Assembly (NCBI RefSeq): GCF_000468095.1
Contig: NZ_ASZC01000014.1
Location: 62,001-126,000 of the forward strand
Direction: 5' to 3'
Source of the DNA: Pantoea sp. AS-PWVM4
GTDB lineage: Bacteria > Pseudomonadota > Gammaproteobacteria > Enterobacterales > Enterobacteriaceae
Length of the DNA stretch: 64,000 bases
This document shows positions 11,473-35,039 of this stretch, piece after piece. Position 1 is the first letter of the stretch, and the number at the start of each line of letters is the position of its first letter. The notes beneath the pieces are model-generated. The model was not told the origin of the DNA. It did no database searches and saw only the letters and a program-made list of their open reading frames with translations. Position numbers and translations under genes: made by a program.

Positions 11473-12789
11473 ATGAACATTTTCACACGAAATACTCTCT
11501 GGGTATTGTTCTATCTATTTTTCACTGCCGGTCCGTTATTTGTTCTTCTGATAGGTCCACTCCCCCCCTCCAGGGATTTTTGGACAGAATTCTCTGCTGC
11601 GGCAGGCTATGCTGGCCTGGCCATTTTAGGATTGCAGGTTGGTCTTACCGCCCGCTTTCGTGCGGTGACAAGCCCGTGGGGCGAAGATACTATTTATCAT
11701 TTCCATAAACAAATGTCTTTTATTGCCCTGGTCCTGATTATTGCCCATCCTGTCATCCTTTTTATTTTGCGACCAGAAAGACTGGCACTGCTTAATTTCA
11801 TTGAAGCACCGTGGCGGGCACGCTTTGCGGCAATATCTACCTATTCTCTTATTGCCTTAATGGTGATGGCACTGTGGCGTGTGAAACTAAAAATTAGCTA
11901 CGAAGTCTGGCACTATACTCATATTATTTTGGCAGTTTTAGTCATTGGCGCGGGGCTACTTCATACGGTTGCCTGGGGGTTCTATTTAGATGCGCCATTA
12001 AAACGTGCCTTGTGGACAGGATTAGCCATACTCTGGTGCTGCCTGCTGATTTATACACGCATCGTCCGTCCTTTCCTGATGTTGCGAAAACCCTACCAGG
12101 TCATTGCAACGCGCCATGAACGAGGAGGCAGTACCACGCTGGTGATGCAACCTGTTGGTCATTCAGGGTTTCCATTTGTCCCCGGTCAATTTGGCTGGCT
12201 GAATGTCTGGGGAAGTCCTTTCAAATTAACGTCTCATCCCTTCTCTTTTTCATCCAGCGCGGAAATGGCGAAAGAGACGATTGAAATGACCATACAAGAT
12301 GCTGGCGATTACACCCGGAAGATCAGAAATGTGACGGCGGGTAAGCGTGTTTATATTGATGGTCCCTATGGTGCATTCACTGTGGGTAATCCGGCGGATA
12401 TGCATGTGTTAATTGCCGGGGGGATTGGTATTACCCCGATGATGAGTATCATCCGAACTTTTGCCGATCTCGGTGATAAACGTCCGATAATACTAATCTA
12501 TGGTAATAAAAATTGGGATGGCATTACTTTTAGAGAAGAACTGGAAGCCTTGTCAGACAGAATTAATCTACAGGTCATACATGTTCTTGAACAACCCCCG
12601 AAAGACTGGACGGGAGAAACGGGTATCATTAGCAGTGAACTGATACAACGTTATATTCCAGCGCCATATGAACAACATGAATACTTTATCTGTGGCCCAA
12701 ACAGAATGATGGATGAGATTGAAAAAACGCTGGCAGCTTTACAGGTTCCGCTAGCGAAATATCACTCAGAACGCTATCACTTTGTATAA
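11473..12789 (+). CDS. Bis-haem flavocytochrome, ferric reductase / NADPH oxidase-like
   Basis: This 438-residue membrane oxidoreductase joins a ferric-reductase transmembrane domain (about residues 8-200, six or so helices) to a ferredoxin-reductase-type FAD/NAD(P)H domain (205-438). Histidines are paired 14 residues apart on two helices, His78/His92 and His150/His164, the pattern that holds two stacked haems in NOX and FRE proteins. FAD motif HPFSFSS is at 255-261, nucleotide motif GGIGITP at 316-322, and CGPNRMM at 407-413. Likely activity is transmembrane electron transfer from cytosolic NAD(P)H to ferric iron or oxygen; the acceptor is unknown. The ATG at 11473 is preferred over GTG at 11467 because GGGG lies 8 bp before it. 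It is AT-richer than its neighbours, suggesting transfer. Confidence 0.85.
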   Translation: MNIFTRNTLWVLFYLFFTAGPLFVLLIGPLPPSRDFWTEFSAAAGYAGLAILGLQVGLTARFRAVTSPWGEDTIYHFHKQMSFIALVLIIAHPVILFILRPERLALLNFIEAPWRARFAAISTYSLIALMVMALWRVKLKISYEVWHYTHIILAVLVIGAGLLHTVAWGFYLDAPLKRALWTGLAILWCCLLIYTRIVRPFLMLRKPYQVIATRHERGGSTTLVMQPVGHSGFPFVPGQFGWLNVWGSPFKLTSHPFSFSSSAEMAKETIEMTIQDAGDYTRKIRNVTAGKRVYIDGPYGAFTVGNPADMHVLIAGGIGITPMMSIIRTFADLGDKRPIILIYGNKNWDGITFREELEALSDRINLQVIHVLEQPPKDWTGETGIISSELIQRYIPAPYEQHEYFICGPNRMMDEIEKTLAALQVPLAKYHSERYHFV

Positions 12790-13043: not shown

Positions 13044-13805
13044 TTATTCTGTCAGTTGCAGCGCAATTCCACGTTCCCGTAGATTGCGACACACTTCGTC
13101 ATCCAGGCGCGCATCGGTCACGATATCGGTCAGACTCTCAATGGGTGCGGCACAGAACAGTGACCATGAACCGTATTTGCTGCTGTCGGCCAGCAGAATC
13201 CGGCGACGCGCATTCGCCAGCAAATCCATCTTCAGCCCGGCCTTCTCTTCGGTTGGCGTAGTTATGCCGCGTTCGATACTCCACGAGTTACAGCTGACAA
13301 AGGCCACATCCGGGTTGATGCTACGCAGCAGGCGGCGACCATGTTCACCGATGCATGACTGGCTGGAATCATCGATCCGCCCGCCAATGATGGTGACTTC
13401 AATCTGTTTAAATTCAGACAAAAACAGCGCGATGTGCAGGTCGGCAGTGATCACCCGCAGCGGTAAATGGGTCAATTGACGCGCCAGCTCCAGCATGGTG
13501 GTGCCAGCATCCAGTACCACCGCATCTCCGGACTGTACAAAACCGGCTGCAAAATGAGCGATCGCCTGTTTTTCCGCCAGGTTACGCTGCATCTTTTCCA
13601 GAGTGGTTGGCTGGGCGGGGATAAAGCGATTAAGGGTAACGCCGCCGTGACTACGGCTAATCACGCCTTCTTTATCCAGCTTGATCAGATCGCGGCGAAT
13701 AGTGGCCGGTGAGGCAGAAATAGCGCTCACCAGCTGTTCAACAGTAACCAGATTATGGCTTTTCAGATAGTCCATAATCTGGTCGAGGCGACTTTGTCCC
13801 TTCAT
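13044..13805 (-). CDS. DeoR-family transcriptional regulator
   Basis: This 253-residue protein has an N-terminal DeoR winged helix-turn-helix (residues about 3-58, [20 protein letters not shown], then HGGV). The C-terminal sugar-phosphate sensor domain has [13 protein letters not shown] near 98-110 and IIGGRID. DeoR proteins usually repress sugar operons and respond to a phosphorylated intermediate. It is the third gene after dtnK and pdxA2, 6 bp from pdxA2, so it is probably the local and autoregulated controller. A candidate operator array lies at 16091-16218. Salmonella has a similar regulator beside its D-threonate genes. Confidence 0.9.
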
Positions 13806-13811
13806 ATTTCC

Positions 13812-14792
13812 CTATGCAAGTTGCATCGCGAGTTTGATGGAGATCGCCATGCTCGCAGAGTTCGCCTTACCTGTCCAGGCGATATCAAAGGCGGTGCCGT
13901 GGTCCGCAGAAGTACGGATAAACGGCAAACCGGCTGTAATATTGACGCCATCATAAAAACCAAGCAATTTCAGCGGGATATGCCCCTGATCGTGGTACAT
14001 CGCCACCACCATATCATACTGGCCTTGCTGGCATTGCAGGAACACCGTATCCGGCGGGCACGGGCCATAAACATCGATGCCTTTTTCCTTCATCGCTTTG
14101 ATGGCCGGTGCCACGGTAGTGATCTCTTCATCACCAAACAAACCATTCTCACCGGCATGCGGGTTAACCCCGGCAACCGCAATACGCGGTTTGTCGAATC
14201 CGACGCGGCGCAGGAAGGTATCTGCCATGCCGATCACCGTCTCAATACGCGGACGATTGAGGGTGTCGAGGAATTTACGCAGCGCGATATGCGTCGTAAC
14301 GTGAATCACCTTCAGATGATCGGTGTACAGCACCATCGCGTAATCTTTGGTGTTGGTCAGTTGCGCCAGCAGTTCGGTGTGGCCGGGATAGATATGCCCC
14401 GCCGAATGCAGGGCTTCTTTGTTCAGCGGCGCAGTCGCAATCGCCTGCACTTCCCCAGCCAGAGCCAGTTCGGTGGCACGTTTCACGCAGCGCCATGCCA
14501 GATCGCCCGCTTCTTTCTGCACCACACCGGGTTGCAGCGCTTCCGGGTTCGCCAGCGGCTCGTCAATCACGTTGATGATACCCGGCGCAAAATGCGCGTC
14601 TTTTACCTGGTCCAGCACGCGCAGCTCAGCCTGCGGCGTAATGTTCAATCCCATCACCCGACGCAGCGTTGCGGCACAGCCCACCACCACCGCCGGAACA
14701 CCGGCCAGCTCGCCTTCCGCCAGCGCTTTAATGATGATCTCAGGGCTGATGCCCGCCGGATCGCCCATGGTCACCGCAATAATTTTATTCAC
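13812..14792 (-). CDS. pdxA2: 4-phospho-D-threonate 3-dehydrogenase (PdxA2)
   Basis: PdxA2 oxidises and decarboxylates 4-phospho-D-threonate to dihydroxyacetone phosphate with NAD, following DtnK. The 326-residue sequence is very like Salmonella PdxA2 as I remember it, for example ITMGDPAGI/VTMGDPAGIS, PGHTELLA, THIALRKFLDTL and NPHAGENGLFG. Metal ligands are His168, His212 and His267 (YHDQGHIPLK). The start is GTG at 14792, 7 bp after GAGGAG, overlapping the dtnK stop by 8 bp. A longer TTG start at 14807 is less likely. It is a paralogue of the vitamin B6 enzyme PdxA; context decides the catabolic call. Confidence 0.9.
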   Translation of the reverse strand: MNKIIAVTMGDPAGISPEIIIKALAEGELAGVPAVVVGCAATLRRVMGLNITPQAELRVLDQVKDAHFAPGIINVIDEPLANPEALQPGVVQKEAGDLAWRCVKRATELALAGEVQAIATAPLNKEALHSAGHIYPGHTELLAQLTNTKDYAMVLYTDHLKVIHVTTHIALRKFLDTLNRPRIETVIGMADTFLRRVGFDKPRIAVAGVNPHAGENGLFGDEEITTVAPAIKAMKEKGIDVYGPCPPDTVFLQCQQGQYDMVVAMYHDQGHIPLKLLGFYDGVNITAGLPFIRTSADHGTAFDIAWTGKANSASMAISIKLAMQLA

Positions 14793-16056
14793 TCGACATC
14801 TCCTCAATAAAACGAATGGCTTCTACCAGGGTGTTTTCGTCGCCAAAGCCACCCGCTTTGGTCATCACCGGCAGGTGTAAATCACTATTAAGCAGAACCC
14901 CGTGCGGCACACAGCCCGCCACCAGACCCTGAATTTGAAAACCGCTGGCCCCCAGCGCCTGTGCCACGGCAATCGCCACATCCCCACCGGAGAGATACAG
15001 CCCGGCAGGCTGGACGTTGCGGCACACCGCTTCGGTCAGTTGGGCCAAAAACTGGCAGATACGCTCGCCCAGTTGCTGGCGGGAAACCTGTTGCTGCTGG
15101 CACAGCCTGTCAATCTCATGACGCTGTGCGGCATGTTGAGTGGTGCGCACCACGCAGTGTTCACCCATGCGCAATGCCTGCTCCATCGCCTGCTGCCAGT
15201 TGCTGGCCTGCGGCCATGCTGGCTGGGCAAACAACTGACGGATATCAATATCGATAATGCGAATCGCCCGCTGGCTATTGAGACGATCAATCTGCTGTTG
15301 GGCAATGGCGCTCATCGAGCCCACCACCGCCAGCACCGGCCGCGCCTCCCGGCCTGCCAGATACTCACCCAGCGCGTCACCCAGACCAGATGCCCCGGCC
15401 AACAGTGGACGCGTTGACAGCGCGGCTGCCGCCTGCATCAAAACGCGTAAATCGGCGTCCTGCTCAATATCAATCACCACCAGCCCCTGCTTCCCTGCCA
15501 GCACCTGCGCCAGCTTGCCGCTGCGTAGCGTGTCGATGTTGATCACTTCACCTGGCAAATCGCTCTGCATCTGCAAGCGCGTCAGCACATTGCTGCTGGT
15601 AACGGGCGTTTTCGGGTCGCTGGCAAATTCGGTGTCAGTCAGGCGCTGCTGATTGATCCACACCTCGCCCCCTCGCGTGGTGCGCCCCAGCTTTGGTACC
15701 GCAGGCACGACCAGCGCCAGCGCTTTGCCACTGGCCGCCATCGCTGCGGCGATTTCCGCACCGGGGTTGCCACGTAACGTGGAATCCATCTTCTTAAACA
15801 ACCAGCCATCCTGCGCAATCGCCTGATGCTGCTGTACCGCGCGTTCAGTGCGTTGCGCGGCCTCAGTGGCACTGACTGCCCGGCTGTCGGTGCTAATCAC
15901 CAGTACATCGGCGGCATTGGCATCATGCGGCGTATCGCTATTAAACAGCACATGCACGCGCGCCCCTGCCCGGGCCAGACCGCTTCCGGCATCGTTAGCG
16001 CCGGTAAAATCATCGGCAATCACCAGAACCGGCGTTTTCCAAGGTTGTGAACGCAT
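14785..16056 (-). CDS. dtnK: Four-carbon acid sugar kinase, D-threonate kinase type (DUF1537)
   Basis: DUF1537 kinases phosphorylate acid sugars; the member paired with PdxA2 in Salmonella acts on D-threonate. The 423-residue protein begins near LVIADDFTGANDAG (Asp15-Asp16, family N-terminal motif). It then shows FKKMDSTLRGNPGAEI, and the C-terminal nucleotide part LYLSGGDVAIAVAQALG and GCVPHGVLL. The ATG at 16056 follows AGGAGAGG closely. An upstream GTG at 16110 has no ribosome site. It leads the dtnK-pdxA2-deoR operon, divergent from the alcohol dehydrogenase. D-erythronate or L-threonate is a possible alternative substrate. Confidence 0.88.
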   Translation of the reverse strand: MRSQPWKTPVLVIADDFTGANDAGSGLARAGARVHVLFNSDTPHDANAADVLVISTDSRAVSATEAAQRTERAVQQHQAIAQDGWLFKKMDSTLRGNPGAEIAAAMAASGKALALVVPAVPKLGRTTRGGEVWINQQRLTDTEFASDPKTPVTSSNVLTRLQMQSDLPGEVINIDTLRSGKLAQVLAGKQGLVVIDIEQDADLRVLMQAAAALSTRPLLAGASGLGDALGEYLAGREARPVLAVVGSMSAIAQQQIDRLNSQRAIRIIDIDIRQLFAQPAWPQASNWQQAMEQALRMGEHCVVRTTQHAAQRHEIDRLCQQQQVSRQQLGERICQFLAQLTEAVCRNVQPAGLYLSGGDVAIAVAQALGASGFQIQGLVAGCVPHGVLLNSDLHLPVMTKAGGFGDENTLVEAIRFIEEMSSE

Positions 16057-16090
16057 CCTCTCTCCTGTAACGGGCAGCTTGCCGTGTTGA

Positions 16091-16218
16091 GATTGATTAT
16101 ATTCAATCACGATTGATTATATGTGAGCAAGATCAAATTAATTGAAATCAATATGCCCTATAAATTCAGGCACAGTTAGTGACAGATATCGCAGACTGAT
16201 GAGCAAAACCAATCAATC
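16091..16218. promoter_or_regulatory. Divergent sugar-acid promoter: direct repeats and CRP-like site
   Basis: Two copies of GATTGATTATAT start at 16091 and 16111, exactly 20 bp apart. The inverted half-site AATCAATC is at 16211-16218 beside the rightward promoter. Such spaced repeats fit a DeoR-family operator. TGTGAGCAAGATCAAA at 16122-16137 matches the CRP consensus at 9 of 10 conserved bases. Together they suggest induction by substrate under cAMP-CRP control of both divergent arms. Confidence 0.6.
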
Positions 16219-16248
16219 AGCGCGATAACATCGGGAAAAGGGTACGAA

Positions 16249-17397
16249 ATGAATATCAACAGCACCGTGATTAGCGGCTATCAGGCACTCAATGACCTCA
16301 GCTACCTGCTGAAAGGTCGGCAGAAAGCGCTGCTGGTCACTGATAAGAATATAGAGGGCATCCCGGCAGTCCAGACGTTGATTGCCCAACTGAAGCAGCA
16401 CATTGCCAGCCTCAGTGTGGTCAACAGCGTGCCGCCAGAACCCAGCCAGCATGATGTGGCGGCGATTGTTGCTGCCCTGCCGACGACCGATGTCGATCTG
16501 GTGATTGGTGTAGGCGGCGGTAGCGTACTGGACGTTGCCAAACTGCTCTCTATTCTGTGCGTGAAAGGCGCGCCTACCCTTGAGGCCCTGCTGGCCGGGG
16601 AAAAACCGCTGACCCGCACCACTTCGCTGCTGATCCCGACCACCGCAGGCACCGGTTCAGAAGCCACGCCGAACGCCATCCTGGCGATCCCGGAGAAAGA
16701 AACCAAAGTTGGCATTATTACTCCGGTGATGCTGCCGGACTATGTCGCGCTGGTGCCGGAGCTGACCACCAGCATGCCACCACACATCGCCTCTTCTACC
16801 GGCATTGATGCGCTGTGCCACCTGATTGAGTGCTTCACCGCCACAGTCGCCAACCCGGTGAGTGATAACTACGCGATGATTGGCATGAAAAAGCTGTTTG
16901 CCAGCCTGGAAACCGCCGTTGCCGAGCCGGGTAATCTTGAAGCGCGTCTGAATATGCTGTGGGCGTCATATTACGGCGGCGCATCGATTGCCCACGCCGG
17001 TACGCATCTGGTGCACGCGATGTCTTATCCGCTGGGCGGCAAATATCACATTCCGCACGGCGTGGCGAACGCCATCCTGTTGGCACCCTGTATGCGTTTC
17101 GTACGCCCGGCAGCAGTGAGTAAATTTGCTCAGGCTTATGACCTGCTGCCTGACGCCGACCAGACTCTGGATGAAGAAGCGAAATCGCACGCGCTGGTTG
17201 AGTACTTCGCCGCGCTGGTACAGCGCCTGAAACTGCCAGCCAGCCTGGAAGAGCTGGGTATCGGCCCGGATCACCTGCCCTATCTGGTAGAAGCCGCGCT
17301 CGACGTGCAACGCCTGATGAAGAATGTACCGATGAAAGTGAGCGCCGATGACGTGCGAAACGTCTACCTGACGCTGTTTCCGGCATTGAATCACTAA
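16249..17397 (+). CDS. Iron-containing alcohol dehydrogenase
   Basis: This 382-residue protein is a group III (Fe-type) alcohol dehydrogenase. The NAD loop GVGGGSVLDVAK is at 87-98 and PTTAGTGSE at 130-138. The metal ligands are Asp187, His191, His256 and His270, with the spacing seen in FucO. The substrate is not readable. In this cluster a hydroxy acid or the aldehyde made by the neighbouring aldolase is likely. It leads the rightward operon, and 17 bp separate it from the DapA-family gene. Confidence 0.9.
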   Translation: MNINSTVISGYQALNDLSYLLKGRQKALLVTDKNIEGIPAVQTLIAQLKQHIASLSVVNSVPPEPSQHDVAAIVAALPTTDVDLVIGVGGGSVLDVAKLLSILCVKGAPTLEALLAGEKPLTRTTSLLIPTTAGTGSEATPNAILAIPEKETKVGIITPVMLPDYVALVPELTTSMPPHIASSTGIDALCHLIECFTATVANPVSDNYAMIGMKKLFASLETAVAEPGNLEARLNMLWASYYGGASIAHAGTHLVHAMSYPLGGKYHIPHGVANAILLAPCMRFVRPAAVSKFAQAYDLLPDADQTLDEEAKSHALVEYFAALVQRLKLPASLEELGIGPDHLPYLVEAALDVQRLMKNVPMKVSADDVRNVYLTLFPALNH

Positions 17398-17414
17398 GGA
17401 CTATCGAGGAAATC

Positions 17415-18299
17415 ATGAGCAACAAAATTCAGGGCGTACTGACCGCCATTGTCACCACCTTCGACCGCGACGGTGCCTTTAACCCTGCCACACAACGTGA
17501 GCAGGTGAAGCGTCAACTGAGCGCCGGTAACGGTATTTTCTGCGGCGGCACCAACGGTGAATTCTTCGTGCTGAATGAGCAGGAGAAACTGGCGGTCACT
17601 GAAACCTGCGTGGATGAAGTGAACGCCAGCGCGCCCGTAGTGGCACATATTGGCGAGATCTCCACCCGTGAAACCATCCGTCTCGGTAAGCAGATTGAGA
17701 AACTGGGTGTTGATGCGGTATCGGTGATCACCCCGTACTTCGTGCCGTTGAAGCAGGATGAGTTGATTTACCACTATCAGACGGTGGCGGATGCGCTGAA
17801 CGTGCCGCTGTTCCTCTACAACATCCCGGCGCGTACCGGCAATACCTTGCAACCGGAAACCGTGCGCACGCTGGCGTCACATCCCAACATCATCGGTATC
17901 AAGGACAGCGCGGGCAGCTACGAAAGCCTGAGCGGTTTCCTGCAAGCCGCCAAAGGTATCGATAATTTTGACGTGCTGAATGGCCCGGACTCGTTGATTC
18001 ATCAGGGCTTTGTTGATGGCTGCTCAGCCTGCATCTCCGGCCTTGCCAACGTGGCACCGAAAGAGATCAACGCCATCTGGGCACGCTTCCACGCCGGCGA
18101 TATCGAAGGTTCGCGCCTGGCACAGGAAAATGTCACCGGCTTACGCACCGACCTGTACAGCGTCGGCTTCTCACCGGCAGCGGTGAAAAAGGCGGTTTCT
18201 CTGCTCGGTTATAACGTCGGTGACAGCCGCTATGCGGTGCGTTTCACTGCCGAAGAAGAGCAGAAGATCCGTCAGATCGTGAACCAGTATTTGCAGTAA
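17415..18299 (+). CDS. DapA-family aldolase/lyase (dihydrodipicolinate synthase family)
   Basis: This 294-residue class I lyase has the Schiff-base lysine Lys163 in GIKDSAGS, the catalytic tyrosine Tyr135 in FLYNIPARTGN, and a GGTNGEF loop at 44-50 in place of the GTTGE of true DapA. The variant loop and the neighbours point to a catabolic 2-keto-3-deoxy acid or hydroxy-keto acid aldolase, not lysine synthesis. The products would be pyruvate and an aldehyde. AGGA precedes the ATG. A hairpin follows before the next gene. Confidence 0.88.
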   Translation: MSNKIQGVLTAIVTTFDRDGAFNPATQREQVKRQLSAGNGIFCGGTNGEFFVLNEQEKLAVTETCVDEVNASAPVVAHIGEISTRETIRLGKQIEKLGVDAVSVITPYFVPLKQDELIYHYQTVADALNVPLFLYNIPARTGNTLQPETVRTLASHPNIIGIKDSAGSYESLSGFLQAAKGIDNFDVLNGPDSLIHQGFVDGCSACISGLANVAPKEINAIWARFHAGDIEGSRLAQENVTGLRTDLYSVGFSPAAVKKAVSLLGYNVGDSRYAVRFTAEEEQKIRQIVNQYLQ

Positions 18300-18307
18300 T
18301 GGCCGTC

Positions 18308-18327
18308 AGGGCAGCGTGTGCTGCCCT
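18308..18327 (+). other. Intercistronic hairpin in the sugar-acid operon
   Basis: AGGGCAGC and GCTGCCCT form a perfect 8-bp stem with a GTGT loop, 8 bp after the aldolase stop. Only a weak pyrimidine-rich tail follows, so it may stabilise the upstream message or attenuate downstream expression. Confidence 0.5.
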
Positions 18328-18359
18328 TGCCTGTTCCACTTTTTACACCGGGAAGCGTT

Positions 18360-19313
18360 ATGAAAGTTATCTGTACCTCACCATCATTCGCTAAATATGA
18401 CGCAACGCCAATCACCACGTTGCAACAGCAGGGTTTTGAACTGATCACCCTGCCCGCCGATGCCCCGCTAAGCGCGCTGGAGCCGCATCTGCCCGACACC
18501 GTGGCGATGATTGTCGCCTTTACCGACGTCAATGAAGAACTATTGAGCAAAGCGCCACAGCTGAAGATTGTCTGTAAGCACGGCGTAGGCGTCGACAACA
18601 TCAATCTGGAAGCCACCCGCGCACGCGGTATTTACGTGACCAACGTGCCGGATGCCAACAAGCATGCCGTGGCTGACTTCGCTTTTGCTTTGATCCTCAA
18701 CAGCGCCCGTCAGGTCACCCAGGCGGCGGTGGAAACCCGCGCCGGCAACTGGCCGCGTATTTTTGCCACCGACGTTTACGGCAAAACGCTTGGCATCGTT
18801 GGGCTGGGCAACATTGGTAAGCAGGTCGCACTGCGCGCCAAGGGCTTCAACATGCGCGTGATCGCCTTCGATTTCTACCCGGATGAGAAATTCGCTGCGG
18901 AACATGGCATCGAATTCGTCAGCATGGATCAACTGACCGAAGCGAGTGACTTCATCACCCTGCATACCCCGCTGACCAATGAAACGCGCAACCTGTTTGA
19001 TGCAGCTCGTATCAAACGGATGAAGAAAAGTGCGTTCCTGATCAATGTATCGCGCGGTGGCGTGGTGAATGAACAGGATCTGTTCCAGGCGTTGCAGGAC
19101 AACGTGATCGCCGGAGCGGCTGCGGATGTCTTTGAGCAGGAACCTCTGGCCGAACATCCGCTGTTCACCCTGAGCAACTTTATTCCGACCTCACATATTG
19201 CGGGCTACACCGACGGGGCAATCAGCGCCATTGGCGAACGTTGCGTGACGCAAATTGTGCAGTGCATTAAACAGGGCGAACGCCCGGTTAACGTGATGAA
19301 CGGGCTGGCCTGA
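18360..19313 (+). CDS. D-isomer-specific 2-hydroxyacid dehydrogenase
   Basis: This 317-residue protein is of the phosphoglycerate/glycerate dehydrogenase family. The NAD-binding GLGNIG is at 148-153 and the catalytic triad is Arg232 (NVSRGG), Glu261 (FEQEP) and His279 (TSHIAGYTDGA). It has no C-terminal ACT domain, so it is not SerA. It probably interconverts a D-2-hydroxy acid and its keto acid in the cluster pathway. The ATG at 18360 follows GGAAG; the longer upstream frame has no family similarity. Confidence 0.9.
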   Translation: MKVICTSPSFAKYDATPITTLQQQGFELITLPADAPLSALEPHLPDTVAMIVAFTDVNEELLSKAPQLKIVCKHGVGVDNINLEATRARGIYVTNVPDANKHAVADFAFALILNSARQVTQAAVETRAGNWPRIFATDVYGKTLGIVGLGNIGKQVALRAKGFNMRVIAFDFYPDEKFAAEHGIEFVSMDQLTEASDFITLHTPLTNETRNLFDAARIKRMKKSAFLINVSRGGVVNEQDLFQALQDNVIAGAAADVFEQEPLAEHPLFTLSNFIPTSHIAGYTDGAISAIGERCVTQIVQCIKQGERPVNVMNGLA

Positions 19314-19342
19314 GGGCCGCCCCCCTGAATCGAGTGATTATT

Positions 19343-20662
19343 ATGAATACACCCTCACGCTCGACCCGTATTCGCTGGTGGATCGCTGGCCTGATGTGGC
19401 TGGCTGTCGCCATTAACTATATTGACCGTACTGTACTCTCTGCTGCTGCCCCGCATCTGATCAAAGAACTGGAAATCAATCCAGAGATGATGGGCGTAAT
19501 CATGGCCGCGTTTTTCTGGTCGTACGCACTACTGCAAATTCCGGCTGGCTGGTTTGCTGACCGTTTCGGTCAGAAAAAAGGGCTGGGAATTGCCGTTGGC
19601 TGGTGGTCAATCGCCACTATGGCAATGGGCCTGGCAACGGGCTTTAAATCGCTACTGGCGCTGCGTCTGGCGCTGGGTGTCGGTGAAGCGGCGGCCTACC
19701 CGAGCAACGCCGGGATCGCAGCCCGCTGGTTCCCGGACCGCGAACGCGCCACCGTCTCTGGCTTGTTTGACAGCGCCTCCAAATTTGGTGGTGCTATCGC
19801 CATGCCGCTGATTGTATGGATGATCGCCATGTTTGACTGGCGCATCACCTTCCTCGCCATCGGTGCGGTCGGTCTGTTCTGGGTAATTGCCTGGTACTTT
19901 ATCTATGCCGAGAACCCGGAAGATCATAAGTCGATCAGCCGCGATGAAGTGCACCTGATCCGTGATGGCCAGGCTAACAAGCACGGTGATAAAAGCGTGC
20001 TGCCGATGAAGTGGTACAAGCTGCTGCGCTATCGCAATATCTGGGCAATGTGCATTGGCTTCTTCACCATCAACTACACCTCCTATTTCTTTATCACCTG
20101 GCTGCCGACCTACCTGGTGAAAGATAAAGGCATGGACTTCCTGAAAATGGGGATGGTGGCAGCACTGCCGTTGATTTGCGGCATGGTGATTGAAGTGCTG
20201 GCTGGTTGGGCATCCGACCGGATGGTGCACAACAAAGTCCTGTCGCTGACCGCGACACGTAAACTGTTCCTGACCATTGGCCTGGTGATGGCGCTGTGTA
20301 TCGGTTTTGCGCCCTTCACTGACTCGGTATTTATGACGGTGCTGCTGCTGTGCATCGCCAAATCGGGTACCACCGTAGCGGCTTCCCAGGTGTGGGCGTT
20401 GCCGGGTGACGTGGCACCGAAAAACAGCGTGTCAATTGTCGCCGGATTGCAGAACACCGTTTCCAATATGGGCGGCGCGGTTGGCCCGATCATTACCGGT
20501 GCTATCGTGGGTGCCACCGGCCATTTCACCTGGGCGCTGGTGTTCTCTGCCGTACTGGTGGTGATTGGCATCCTTAATTACCTGTTCCTGATGGGCAAAG
20601 TAGAACCTATCGTGGATGAGGAACAGGTTCATCATTCACAAACCCTGACCAGCGGCGCGTAA
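19343..20662 (+). CDS. MFS transporter, ACS (anion:cation symporter) family, copy 1
   Basis: This 439-residue, 12-helix transporter carries ACS-family marks: WLAVAINYIDRTVLSAAAP in helix 1, AFFWSYALLQIPAGWFADRFG between helices 2 and 3, and RLALGVGEAAAYPSN. The family takes up sugar acids such as galactonate and glucarate, which fits its place after three sugar-acid enzymes. The ATG at 19343 has GAGTG 7 bp upstream; a GTG at 19334 is less suited. Confidence 0.9.
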   Translation: MNTPSRSTRIRWWIAGLMWLAVAINYIDRTVLSAAAPHLIKELEINPEMMGVIMAAFFWSYALLQIPAGWFADRFGQKKGLGIAVGWWSIATMAMGLATGFKSLLALRLALGVGEAAAYPSNAGIAARWFPDRERATVSGLFDSASKFGGAIAMPLIVWMIAMFDWRITFLAIGAVGLFWVIAWYFIYAENPEDHKSISRDEVHLIRDGQANKHGDKSVLPMKWYKLLRYRNIWAMCIGFFTINYTSYFFITWLPTYLVKDKGMDFLKMGMVAALPLICGMVIEVLAGWASDRMVHNKVLSLTATRKLFLTIGLVMALCIGFAPFTDSVFMTVLLLCIAKSGTTVAASQVWALPGDVAPKNSVSIVAGLQNTVSNMGGAVGPIITGAIVGATGHFTWALVFSAVLVVIGILNYLFLMGKVEPIVDEEQVHHSQTLTSGA

Positions 20663-20673
20663 GCGCCCTGACC

Positions 20674-20696
20674 CGCCGCATCGTCCTGATGCGGCG
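20674..20696 (+). terminator. Hairpin between the two MFS genes
   Basis: CGCCGCATC and GATGCGGCG form a perfect 9-bp stem with a GTCCT loop, 12 bp after the first transporter. TTCC follows, a weak tail. It may partly end the upstream transcript, making MFS copy 2 and the cyclase a separate unit. Confidence 0.5.
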
Positions 20697-20735
20697 TTCC
20701 CTACAACTCACTATAAAAAACAATTGGAGGCGATG

Positions 20736-22067
20736 ATGTCGCTGAATTCCAATGGAGCATCTGCTGCTGTTTCGGCAAGAAAAGGGAAATTTCGTTTCAT
20801 CATTCTGACGGTGCTGTCTGTCAGCATCGCCATCAACTACATCGACCGCGCCGCAATGAGCGTCGCCATCCCGTTTATGAGCCAGGAGTTACACTTCTCG
20901 CCCACCGACAGCGGGTTGCTGCTCTCCGCCTTTTTCTGGAGTTATGTGCTGTTCCAGTTACCAGGCGGTTGGCTGGTGGATAAACTCGGCCCACGCATCA
21001 CTTTTGCCCTCAGTAGCCTCGGCTGGGGACTGGCAACGGCGGCCTGCGGCCTGGCCAGCAGTATCGCGGCGCTGGTGGGTTTCCGCTTCGTCCTCGGTGC
21101 GGTCGAAGCCCCCAGCTATCCCGCCAGTTCCTCGACCGTGACACGCTGGTTCCCGCGCCAGGAACGCAGTTTCGCCGCCGCCACCTTTAACAACGGCAGC
21201 AAAATTGGCGGCACCCTGGCGATTCCGATCATCTCGTTTTTAATTGCGCTGGTTGGCTGGCGTATGACCTTTGTCATCTCCGGTCTGGTGGCGGTGGTCT
21301 GGGCGCTGGCATGGTATCTGTGGTATCGCGATCCGCGCGAACACAAGGCCGTCTCCGCAGAGGAAGTGGCGTTTATTGAGGCCAATCAGGACCCGCAAAA
21401 CGGCGAACCGATGAGCGTACGTCAGTTGCTGGCGCAGCGCACCGTGCAGGCGATGATGGCGGGTTTCTTCTGCATCAACTTCGTTTCCTATTTCTTCTTC
21501 ACCTGGTTCCCAACCTATCTGGTGGAAACCTTCCATCTTTCTCTGATGAAGTTCGGCCTGCTGGGGATGCTGCCGGGTATCGCCGCGATTGTCGGTGGCT
21601 GGTGTGGCGGTTTGCTGTCGGATTCGCTGGTGCGCCGAGGTTATTCACTCAGCGTGGCGCGAAAAATCCCGCTGGTCGGTGGGATGCTTGGCAGCGCGAC
21701 TATCGGCCTGGCGGCCTTTTCCCCGACGGTAGGTCTGGCGCTGTCTGCGCTGTGCTTCGCTAACTTTGCCGCAACCTTTGCTTCGGCGGCTTTGTGGGCG
21801 CTGCCGTCAGACGTGGCACCCAACCGCGCCAATGTCGCCACCATTGGGGGTATCCAGAATATGGCGGCCAACCTTGCTGGCATCATTTCGCCGATTCTGA
21901 TCGGTGTGATCATGCAGTTCACCCATTCGTTCGTGATTCCGCTGGAAATCGCTGGCGTCATCGGTGTGGTCGGCGCGCTGGTGTATGCCTTCTGGCTGCC
22001 GCGCGTGCAGCCGATGGGCGTGGCCGACAACGCTGCGCCGAATGGCGCGTTGAGGAGAGAAGTATGA
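20736..22067 (+). CDS. MFS transporter, ACS family, copy 2
   Basis: A second ACS-family carrier of 443 residues, related to but clearly different from copy 1: INYIDRAAMSVAIPFM, AFFWSYVLFQLPGGWLVDKLG, RFVLGAVEAPSYPAS. Two ATGs lie together at 20733 and 20736; the second is 5 bp from GGAGG and is chosen. Its stop overlaps the cyclase start (ATGA), so this transporter and the cyclase are translationally coupled. The coupled cyclase may process what it imports. Confidence 0.9.
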   Translation: MSLNSNGASAAVSARKGKFRFIILTVLSVSIAINYIDRAAMSVAIPFMSQELHFSPTDSGLLLSAFFWSYVLFQLPGGWLVDKLGPRITFALSSLGWGLATAACGLASSIAALVGFRFVLGAVEAPSYPASSSTVTRWFPRQERSFAAATFNNGSKIGGTLAIPIISFLIALVGWRMTFVISGLVAVVWALAWYLWYRDPREHKAVSAEEVAFIEANQDPQNGEPMSVRQLLAQRTVQAMMAGFFCINFVSYFFFTWFPTYLVETFHLSLMKFGLLGMLPGIAAIVGGWCGGLLSDSLVRRGYSLSVARKIPLVGGMLGSATIGLAAFSPTVGLALSALCFANFAATFASAALWALPSDVAPNRANVATIGGIQNMAANLAGIISPILIGVIMQFTHSFVIPLEIAGVIGVVGALVYAFWLPRVQPMGVADNAAPNGALRREV

Positions 22068-23107
22068 ATAGCCGTTGGAAACAACGCCCGCCCCACTCCA
22101 CCTGGGGTGATTTTGGCCCCGATGACCAGTTAGGTCGCCTCAATCTACTCACGCCACAAAAAGTGCGGGAAGGTGTGGCGGAAGTGCAGACCGGAGAAAC
22201 CTTTTGCCTGAGTTTGCCGCTCGATTTACCGGGCGGCACGGCGATGAACCCACGTCGTCCACCGCCGCAGCTCAACGCCACAAGGCGTGGTGAACACGCC
22301 AATATGACCTATCCGCTGTCGCGTGATAATCCACAGTTGAGTGATGTGATTTGCGACGACACCGTGACGCTGGCGCTGCAATATTCCACCCAGTGGGACA
22401 GCCTCGCACATATGGGACAATGGTTTGACGTGAACGCGAACGGCGAGCCGGAGATGGTGTTCTACAACGGCTATAAAGCGAATGTCGATATCGTCGGCGA
22501 AACCGACTACCGCGCCGGGTGTGGCTGCCACCACGGTAGCCATCTGGGAGCCAAAGCGCTGGGCATCGAAAATATGGCGCAGCACGGTATTCAGGGACGT
22601 GCGGTGATGATCGATATCAAGCGCCACTTTGGTACCGAGCGTTTTGCCTTTGGCTATACCCATCTGCAACAGATCTTACAGGCAGACGGCATCGAAGTGC
22701 GCCCTGGCGATCTGGTGTGTTTTCGTACCGGCATGGATGAGGCCATTCTGTCGATGCAAGGCGAGCCAGATATGACTTTCCTTAACAGCCACTTTGCCGG
22801 GCTGGACGGCAGCGATGCGCAATTGCGGCAGTGGATTGTAGAAAGCGGTGTTGTGGCGCTGATTGCCGACAATCCGGCGGTGGAGATGCTACCGGCACGA
22901 CCGTTGAACGATGATTTTTATCCGTCGCATCCGCTGCATGATCTCTGCCTGTTCCGCCTGGGGGTGTATCTCGGTGAGTTGTGGTTGCTGAGTCCGTTAG
23001 CAGACTGGCTGGCGCACCACCAGCGGCACGCATTTCTGCTGACGGCCCCGCCACTGCGGCTACCTGGCGCAGTGGGATCTCCTGCTACGCCGGTGGCTAC
23101 CGTATAA
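22064..23107 (+). CDS. Cyclase-family hydrolase (kynurenine formamidase / isatin hydrolase-like)
   Basis: This 347-residue protein matches the cyclase family (metal-dependent amidases and lactone hydrolases). Landmarks are HSTWGDFGPDDQLGRLNLLT near the start, the metal-site segment QWDSLAHMG, HHGSHLGAKALG, and the late NPAVEMLPARPL / HPLHDLCLFRLGVYLGELW block. The usual HxGTHxD motif is altered to QWDSLAHMG, as in a longer subfamily of about 330-350 residues. Substrate unknown; ring opening of a lactone or amide is possible. The start overlaps the transporter stop, with GAGGAG upstream. Confidence 0.82.
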   Translation: MNSRWKQRPPHSTWGDFGPDDQLGRLNLLTPQKVREGVAEVQTGETFCLSLPLDLPGGTAMNPRRPPPQLNATRRGEHANMTYPLSRDNPQLSDVICDDTVTLALQYSTQWDSLAHMGQWFDVNANGEPEMVFYNGYKANVDIVGETDYRAGCGCHHGSHLGAKALGIENMAQHGIQGRAVMIDIKRHFGTERFAFGYTHLQQILQADGIEVRPGDLVCFRTGMDEAILSMQGEPDMTFLNSHFAGLDGSDAQLRQWIVESGVVALIADNPAVEMLPARPLNDDFYPSHPLHDLCLFRLGVYLGELWLLSPLADWLAHHQRHAFLLTAPPLRLPGAVGSPATPVATV

Positions 23108-34912: not shown

Positions 34913-34956
34913 GGGGTGTATTCCTTATCTGTGTCTAATACGTTGAATTGTCAGGA

Positions 34957-35004
34957 GCCTGTCTGCTTGTGCTTTGCTTCAGTTCACAGCACAAGAAGAC
35001 AGGC
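34957..35004. other. Large hairpin in the pdhR-aceE intergenic region
   Basis: GCCTGTCT-G-CTTGTGCT pairs with AGCACAAG-A-AGACAGGC over a 14-nt loop: two perfect 8-bp stems with one mismatch between. On the plus strand CGTCGCTTTTT follows, but on the transcribed minus strand no T-run follows. It is thus more likely an RNA processing or stabilising structure in the pdhR-aceE transcript than a terminator of it. Confidence 0.7.
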
Positions 35005-35039
35005 CCGTCGCTTTTTATCCGCACGTTCGTTGCCGCGCG

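Follow-up and report, generated by a model that had tools for sequence, protein, structure and literature searches.

The stretch analysed here, hereafter the window, comprises 64,000 nucleotides of Pantoea sp. AS-PWVM4 (contig NZ_ASZC01000014.1, positions 62,001 to 126,000) and contains an island of nine genes in two divergent arms (positions 13044 to 23107). The left arm is a D-threonate module, and the right arm starts with the genes of a Fe-type alcohol dehydrogenase (Fe-ADH) and a DapA-family lyase. We consider it very probable that the two arms form one pathway and one regulon. In the pathway that we propose, a seven-carbon (C7) acid sugar would be converted to pyruvate and D-threonate, and the latter to dihydroxyacetone phosphate (DHAP). 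For a single co-regulated pathway of this kind, with 3-deoxy-D-lyxo-2-heptulosarate (Dha) of rhamnogalacturonan II (RG-II), a plant cell-wall pectin, as the most likely substrate, the chances seem to us about even. The enzyme families are ordinary ones in a new and well-conserved combination.

Linkage and probable common control of the two arms

All nine genes were found where an earlier note on this DNA had placed them, and in the families that it had named. On the reverse strand lie the genes for a DeoR-family regulator (13044..13805; PF08220 and PF00455), the D-threonate 4-phosphate dehydrogenase PdxA2 (13812..14792; NF002891, 657 bits, cut-off 583) and the D-threonate kinase DtnK, a DUF1537 protein with the Pfam domains SBD_N and NBD_C (14785..16077; NF047819, 540 bits, cut-off 450). 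The forward strand encodes the Fe-ADH (16249..17397; PF00465/PF25137), the lyase of the DapA or DHDPS family (17415..18299; PF00701), a D-2-hydroxyacid dehydrogenase of the PGDH/glyoxylate reductase type (18360..19313; PF00389/PF02826), two major facilitator superfamily (MFS) transporters of the TIGR00893 type, both under the cut-off of that model (19343..20662 and 20736..22067), and a cyclase-family protein (22064..23107; PF04199). The island is flanked by speE and speD on one side and by acnB on the other, all three above their NCBIfam cut-offs. The assignment of the left arm to the D-threonate module between acnB and speD, also made in the earlier note, was thus confirmed by the curated kinase and dehydrogenase equivalogs and by the flanking genes. 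The permease of that module does not adjoin: the neighbour of the window dtnK is the Fe-ADH gene and not a KdgT-type permease. The Salmonella module, reportedly described by Zhang and colleagues in 2016, is said to consist of KdgT, DtnK, PdxA2 and a DeoR regulator. Its genes match those of the left arm, and many loci share its site near acnB and speD. KdgT is part of it, whereas the island lacks the permease and has a divergent arm that would be expected to make D-threonate internally from a larger acid.

Linkage of the arms was assessed in a family sample of 198 genomes, with thresholds of E <= 1e-80 for the lyase, 1e-60 for DtnK, 1e-70 for the sialidase gene discussed below and 1e-100 for the hydroxyacid dehydrogenase. 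The lyase was found in 29 of these genomes and DtnK in 49. DtnK was present in every one of the 29 lyase genomes as against 20 of the 169 without the lyase, a comparison that treats related genomes as independent. A comparison of neighbourhoods among relatives had been proposed in the earlier note, and in 26 of the 29 lyase genomes dtnK and the lyase gene were divergent and within 5 kb of each other, the exceptions being G115, G141 and G146. The last of these, from the genus of the window, has pdxA2 adjoining the right arm, and on a different contig dtnK, adjacent to KdgT, occupies the acnB-speD site (L075, L105), so that the module is split.

Two pathways under one regulator are an unlikely alternative explanation. 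The right arm would then comprise a 2-keto-3-deoxy-pentonate or -hexonate aldolase and a glycolaldehyde or glyceraldehyde reductase, comparable to D-xylonate use in E. coli, while the left arm would use external D-threonate. In its favour, the left arm occurs without the right arm and next to KdgT in all ten loci examined (L095-L104), which were taken from the 20 genomes that have DtnK but gave no lyase match; KdgT was named by Pfam in one of these loci and by similarity to that one in the others. Against it, just two of the 52 lyase loci have KdgT, which suggests that D-threonate is then made internally, and DtnK was never missing from a lyase genome. The 52 are the related named loci counted throughout, from which two loci on genome contigs with 29-30% identity (L159, L160) had been excluded beforehand.

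The intergenic region between dtnK and the Fe-ADH gene contains an operator-like sequence, TGATTATATTCAATCA (16094..16109, unstranded), the sole exact copy of this 16-mer in the genome. Twelve nucleotides after it there is a CRP-like site, TGTGAGCAAGATCAAA (16122..16137, forward strand), called with the CRP consensus, and a -10-like box of a putative right-arm promoter, CTATAAATT (16158..16166, forward strand), lies 36 nt from the start of TGTGA. The exact core GATTATATTCAATC was present in 50 of the 52 related loci, 48 of which also had ATGTGAGCAA 10-40 nt beyond the core. The sole one-mismatch operator in the 5 Mb genome of the window lies at C9:39182, with 222 nt between it and the likely symporter start of an unlinked operon for an SSS symporter, a sialidase-family protein and an SDR, and the spacing of operator, CRP-like site and -10 box is identical at the two promoters. 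By base composition, 0.045 exact or one-mismatch copies would be expected in this genome. At up to three mismatches 59 matches were obtained as against 6 for the reversed control, and such looser matches are uninformative.

A search with the composite promoter pattern returned only these two sites in the genome of the window and none for the reversed control. Over the 198 genomes it returned 28 sites in 26 genomes, again with none for the control; the 26 comprised 24 lyase genomes, one genome with a broken locus (G028) and one (G114) in which the site accompanies a KdgT-like and a DtnK-like gene. The exact pattern was absent from five lyase genomes (G022, G057, G167, G180, G184). In G115 and G141, where the right arm lies apart, a one-mismatch operator preceded the Fe-ADH gene, and in seven of the ten KdgT-type loci of relatives the operator motif was exact or had one mismatch. 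The distant loci L156 and L168 yielded no operator of this kind, and the regulator-operator pair therefore appears to belong to the family only. The DeoR-family gene is present in 49 of the 52 related loci, and from its position and the shared operator its product likely regulates both arms, probably together with CRP.

Proposed pathway and its substrate

The lyase has the PF00701 fold, the Schiff-base Lys and the catalytic Tyr of the class I aldolases of the DapA superfamily. It exceeds no specific NCBIfam model, with 180.5 bits for DapA (TIGR00674, cut-off 206) and 120.5 bits for the N-acetylneuraminate lyase nanA (TIGR00683, cut-off 382), and it also differs from true DapA in having Phe at the position of Tyr107 of the catalytic triad. 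Equivalents of DapA Lys161, Tyr133 and Arg138 are conserved in 17 of 17 orthologues. The Arg138 equivalent was considered as proof of a diacid substrate and set aside as such, since this residue, constant among the orthologues, is altered in distant lyases of the same architecture and lends weak support. Because the Schiff-base Lys and catalytic Tyr are retained, the enzyme would be expected to act on a 2-keto-3-deoxy acid with release of pyruvate.

The fold search with the lyase did not discriminate, DHDPS and YagE being tied near Z 34.6, and the presence of YagE among the closest folds gives some weight to two separate pathways. So does the Fe-ADH, whose top three NCBIfam matches, 4-hydroxybutyrate dehydrogenase, ErcA and lactaldehyde reductase, were equal at about 211 bits each and below cut-off. 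The Fe-ADH matches PF00465, and its metal ligands Asp, His, His and His were conserved in 11 of 11 aligned sequences, at positions equivalent to those of FucO. A pentonate or hexonate route is disfavoured by the window itself, which has no sugar-acid dehydratase among the nine genes.

In the single pathway that we prefer, a C7 acid sugar or a derivative would be imported by an MFS transporter of the window or by a symporter whose gene lies at another site of the genome (step 1). A 2-hydroxy-3-deoxy diacid would be oxidised by the hydroxyacid dehydrogenase as an alternative entry (step 2a), or a 2-keto-3-deoxy sugar acid would be freed or opened by a sialidase-fold protein, in some loci together with a YhcH/NanQ-type anomerase (step 2b). 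The lyase, as a class I 2-keto-3-deoxy-heptarate or Dha aldolase, would split the 2-keto-3-deoxy-C7 diacid into pyruvate and a C4 aldehyde acid (step 3). This acid, D-threuronate, would be reduced to D-threonate by the Fe-ADH (step 4), and D-threonate would be phosphorylated by DtnK and then oxidised and decarboxylated by PdxA2 to give DHAP and CO2 (step 5), the redox of steps 4 and 5 being balanced. What the sequences show directly is which genes are present and linked, that the promoter sequence is shared, that the halves alternate and that the system is conserved across classes. Step 5 rests on established family knowledge, since the conversion of D-threonate to DHAP by DtnK and PdxA2 is reported as established in PMC10079672; steps 1 to 4, the binding of the regulator and Dha as the substrate are what we infer. 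The suggestion of the earlier note that the right arm handles a larger hydroxy acid and the left arm takes a C4 acid to DHAP is supported by the comparative genomics, with substrates that remain putative.

As reduction of the aldolase product must yield a four-carbon acid that ends in a free CH2OH group, the substrate would have to be a C7 diacid, and judged from the sequences we consider this C7 diacid to D-threonate chemistry rather more probable than the alternatives taken together. Cleavage of Dha between C3 and C4 would leave C5 and C6 in D-threo order. In Fischer projection C4 would become the CHO group, with C5 on the left and C6 on the right; once the product is reduced and the chain turned, C2 would stand on the left and C3 on the right, as in D-threonate. 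By this reasoning the reduced cleavage product of Dha would be exactly D-threonate, one of four possible stereoisomers. To our knowledge, Dha in plants is found solely in RG-II. It has been described as a seven-carbon analogue of sialic acid (PMC6811678). The case for Dha itself as the substrate falls, in our judgement, slightly short of an even chance.

The same gene families could also serve a C7 monoacid (3-deoxy-lyxo-heptulosonate) or another ulosonate, which would be cleaved to pyruvate and D-threose, the latter then being oxidised to D-threonate, and a C4 acid for DtnK would again be obtained. This route would require the oxidation of an aldehyde, for which no aldehyde dehydrogenase is present among the nine genes and which iron alcohol dehydrogenases rarely perform. 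We also know of no common sugar acid of the 3-deoxy-lyxo-heptulosonate type, and consider the monoacid quite improbable.

Interchangeable halves and distant relatives

Downstream of the Fe-ADH and lyase genes, the right arm contains either the hydroxyacid dehydrogenase with MFS transporters, as in the window, or a half built around the sialidase-family protein. The hydroxyacid dehydrogenase was found in 10 of the 198 genomes, every one a lyase genome. The sialidase gene was found in 21, of which 20 had a lyase match and the remaining one (G028) has an indel-ridden copy of the full locus. Together the halves cover all 29 lyase genomes: 19 have the sialidase half only, nine the hydroxyacid dehydrogenase only, and the genome of the window has both, its SSS-sialidase-SDR half being located elsewhere in the genome. 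Among the 52 named loci none was without both halves, and three (L124, L125, L134) carried both. We read the halves as two entry steps into one core. Two loci, that of G028 (L223) and that of Enterobacter sp. EA-1 (L157), are broken over their whole length by many frameshifts, probably sequencing indels, and the two probably come from one assembly.

The composition of each half varies. The first MFS transporter accompanies the hydroxyacid dehydrogenase in 30 of 31 loci, and the second MFS transporter and the cyclase-family protein were found in 11 of the 52 named loci, always together. The sole solved relative found for the latter is 5ibz, an uncharacterized protein; as a guess, it is perhaps a lactonase or hydrolase for the substrate of the second transporter. 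Among 24 named loci of the sialidase type, the SSS symporter was present in 18, the SDR in 18 and a YhcH anomerase-family protein in 13; in the Klebsiella oxytoca/E. coli type, this half includes a TerC protein and an SLC13 permease.

By sequence the sialidase-like protein gave weak matches only in the PDB, and the fold search was decisive. The protein matches BNR_2, a sialidase beta-propeller family, and its model (pLDDT 82) is closest to 1wcq (Z 36.2, 2.6 A over 312 residues). Among the 50 structure matches listed, 49 were sialidases or neuraminidases and the other was a designed protein, 4j9t. The model points to the beta-propeller fold of GH33-type sialidases. The YhcH protein scores above the family cut-off of TIGR00022 and below that of NanQ. 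From the fold model and the YhcH/NanQ family membership, both proteins would fit a ring-form ulosonic acid; they are ill-suited to linear pentonates, which is a further point against two separate pathways.

A sialidase fold, the YhcH family and a lyase of the DapA/NanA superfamily are likewise what a sialic acid (Neu5Ac-type) or Kdo pathway would use, the lyase, sialidase and anomerase acting on C8/C9 ulosonates, and sialic acid catabolism (NanA, NanT, NanQ and sialidases) has these three in common with the sialidase half. We give this explanation very little credence. No N-acetylmannosamine kinase or epimerase is present in the window or the E. coli cluster, the window lyase is 25% identical to NanA, and cleavage of Neu5Ac or Kdo gives N-acetylmannosamine or D-arabinose, neither of which is known as a substrate of DtnK and PdxA2. 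In the pathway proposed for the window, the compound passed to the downstream enzymes would be a C4 acid and no amino sugar.

The unlinked SSS-sialidase-SDR operon has as neighbours the genes for an ABC sugar transporter, a GH28-like protein and a tartrate dehydrogenase (G000:C9:32428-38122; L162:429-6123), and a gene for a LysR protein. The best NCBIfam match of the GH28-like protein was the polygalacturonase PglB with 432 bits, below the cut-off of 600, and the tartrate dehydrogenase was above that of TIGR02089. The transporter, the GH28-like protein and the tartrate dehydrogenase are possibly pectin-related. All four neighbours were weighed as candidate members of the pathway; the operator stands before the symporter gene.

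Outside the sample, 1043 of 5426 complete E. coli genomes encode the E. coli type of the lyase. The type strain carries the entire locus, with glnS and nagE as its flanking genes; the TerC-family gene there (L166:12948-13698) is annotated as frameshifted, and TerC is matched in full in Klebsiella grimontii (L147). More distant members were drawn from plasmid records and from one genome-contig locus; the analysis covered 9 of the 169 plasmid records that have a lyase and 5 of the 297 that have the sialidase gene. The nine distant loci belong to one betaproteobacterium and eight alphaproteobacteria, Propionivibrio (L156) being counted both here and among the 52 named loci. All nine contain the lyase and Fe-ADH and at least one of the two entry proteins (sialidase in seven, hydroxyacid dehydrogenase in three), and within the stretch examined PdxA was found in eight and the DUF1537 kinase in five.

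Five loci were found with the sialidase gene as seed, two from Rhizobium leguminosarum and one each from Caballeronia, Roseomonas gilardii and Shinella. All five encode a DapA-family lyase, a Fe-ADH, PdxA and the kinase, the last with the C-terminal domain only in the R. gilardii gene tested, and in Caballeronia (L226:4073-6379) kinase and PdxA are fused in one protein of 768 residues. Because gene orders and transporters vary among the distant loci, the shared core is not simply due to common descent of one operon, and such rearranged loci are better evidence for one system than co-occurrence statistics on related genomes. Among the transporters close to the core are ACS-type MFS, SLC13 and tripartite tricarboxylate transporters, types that often serve carboxylates. 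In Alloyangia (L172:10755-18097), a GH78-type alpha-L-rhamnosidase, a second DapA-family lyase and a SiaP-type TRAP transporter stand beside the core; this one case would fit a candidate module for Rha-Kdo of RG-II side chain C.

Several observations weigh against the pathway as proposed. The Arg of the lyase suggested to bind the distal carboxylate is replaced by Lys in Caballeronia and, in R. leguminosarum and R. gilardii, with lyases 23-25% identical to that of the window, by Val or Met; one lyase paralogue in the genome of the window also has Arg at the Arg138 position. By eye, the sialidase-fold protein has no secretion signal, whereas Dha in RG-II is polymer-bound; with a cytoplasmic sialidase, either a Dha glycoside would have to be imported or the protein would do something other than hydrolyse glycosides. 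Dha alone does not account for the roles of the hydroxyacid dehydrogenase, the SDR, the cyclase and TerC. The scores of the four distant kinases tested, 80 to 116 bits, fall well short of the 450 bits required by the D-threonate kinase model, so that D-threonate is not secured as the intermediate in the distant loci. Finally, among 369 genomes of the class searched with strict thresholds, the lyase and the sialidase gene were found in the genome of the window and in none of the 368 others, so that at such thresholds the system is rare outside the family. With these points in mind we propose, tentatively and at somewhat less than even probability, a first catabolic route for Dha. A Dha aldolase and a threuronate reductase would feed the D-threonate module, with entry provided interchangeably by a hydroxyacid dehydrogenase or by a cytoplasmic protein of sialidase fold, in loci rearranged across three proteobacterial classes and carried by about one fifth of complete E. 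coli genomes.

Relation to known systems

E. coli uses galactarate and glucarate by means of GarP, the aldolase GarL, the reductase GarR and the kinase GarK. The window has the same logic of an ACS-type transporter, an aldolase giving pyruvate and an aldehyde acid, a reductase and a kinase. Its route would be one carbon longer, uses unrelated families of aldolase, reductase and kinase, and would have an extra PdxA2 step to DHAP. The E. coli D-xylonate operons (yagE-yagF-yagG; yjhH) combine, as the window does, a DapA-family aldolase with a transporter. In the D-xylonate route the substrate of the aldolase is supplied by a dehydratase, and glycolaldehyde is the aldehyde that an iron alcohol dehydrogenase then reduces; unlike the window, these operons have no C4 kinase module. 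In RG-II degradation by Bacteroides thetaiotaomicron, the GH143 Dha hydrolase releases the substrate proposed here (PMC6811678). That system is one of glycan cleavage, and the accessible part of the article does not describe the use of free Dha.

The E. coli form of the window locus, between nagE and glnS, corresponds to the region listed as GR 6 for strain BEN2908 in PMC12928451, where a similar S. meliloti cluster is noted and, in the part available, no pathway is proposed. A link of the E. coli copy to pyridoxal phosphate is suggested there, citing Thiaville et al. 2016. Together with the PdxA family membership, this link would favour a role of the kinase and PdxA2 in pyridoxal phosphate supply, with the other genes as passengers. 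Such a role appears very improbable to us, as pdxA2 and dtnK are above the curated D-threonate cut-offs and the CRP-like site, the transporters and the aldolase indicate catabolism. The colibactin-associated 'D-threonate metabolism region' named in PMC9125672 is probably the same as the E. coli form of the locus; the text consulted names it with plain D-threonate metabolism and proposes no pathway. The earlier note knew of no described pathway that uses this gene set together; in the open-access literature, so far as its searchable text goes, we likewise found no description of the combined pathway or of Dha catabolism, and the E. coli locus is listed under another interpretation in one paper and probably in a second.

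If the proposal is correct, functions would be obtained for groups annotated as 'dihydrodipicolinate synthase family', 'sialidase family' and 'iron-containing alcohol dehydrogenase', and the pathway would be common to many plant- and gut-associated bacteria. It would give one reason why bacteria retain the D-threonate module and would show what becomes of a plant sugar that is among the rarest. A region widespread in E. coli would then encode a pathway for a plant-pectin sugar, and not sialic acid or vitamin B6 metabolism.

The lyase closest to that of the window among 54 named loci, with 95% identity, is from a Pantoea metagenome-assembled genome (L107). Elsewhere in the window, a ferric-reductase-like flavoprotein (PF01794, PF00175) is encoded at 11473-12789, between speD and the island, and a match to the Rfam small RNA tp2 was found at 34917-35035 (69.5 bits, gathering score 50).

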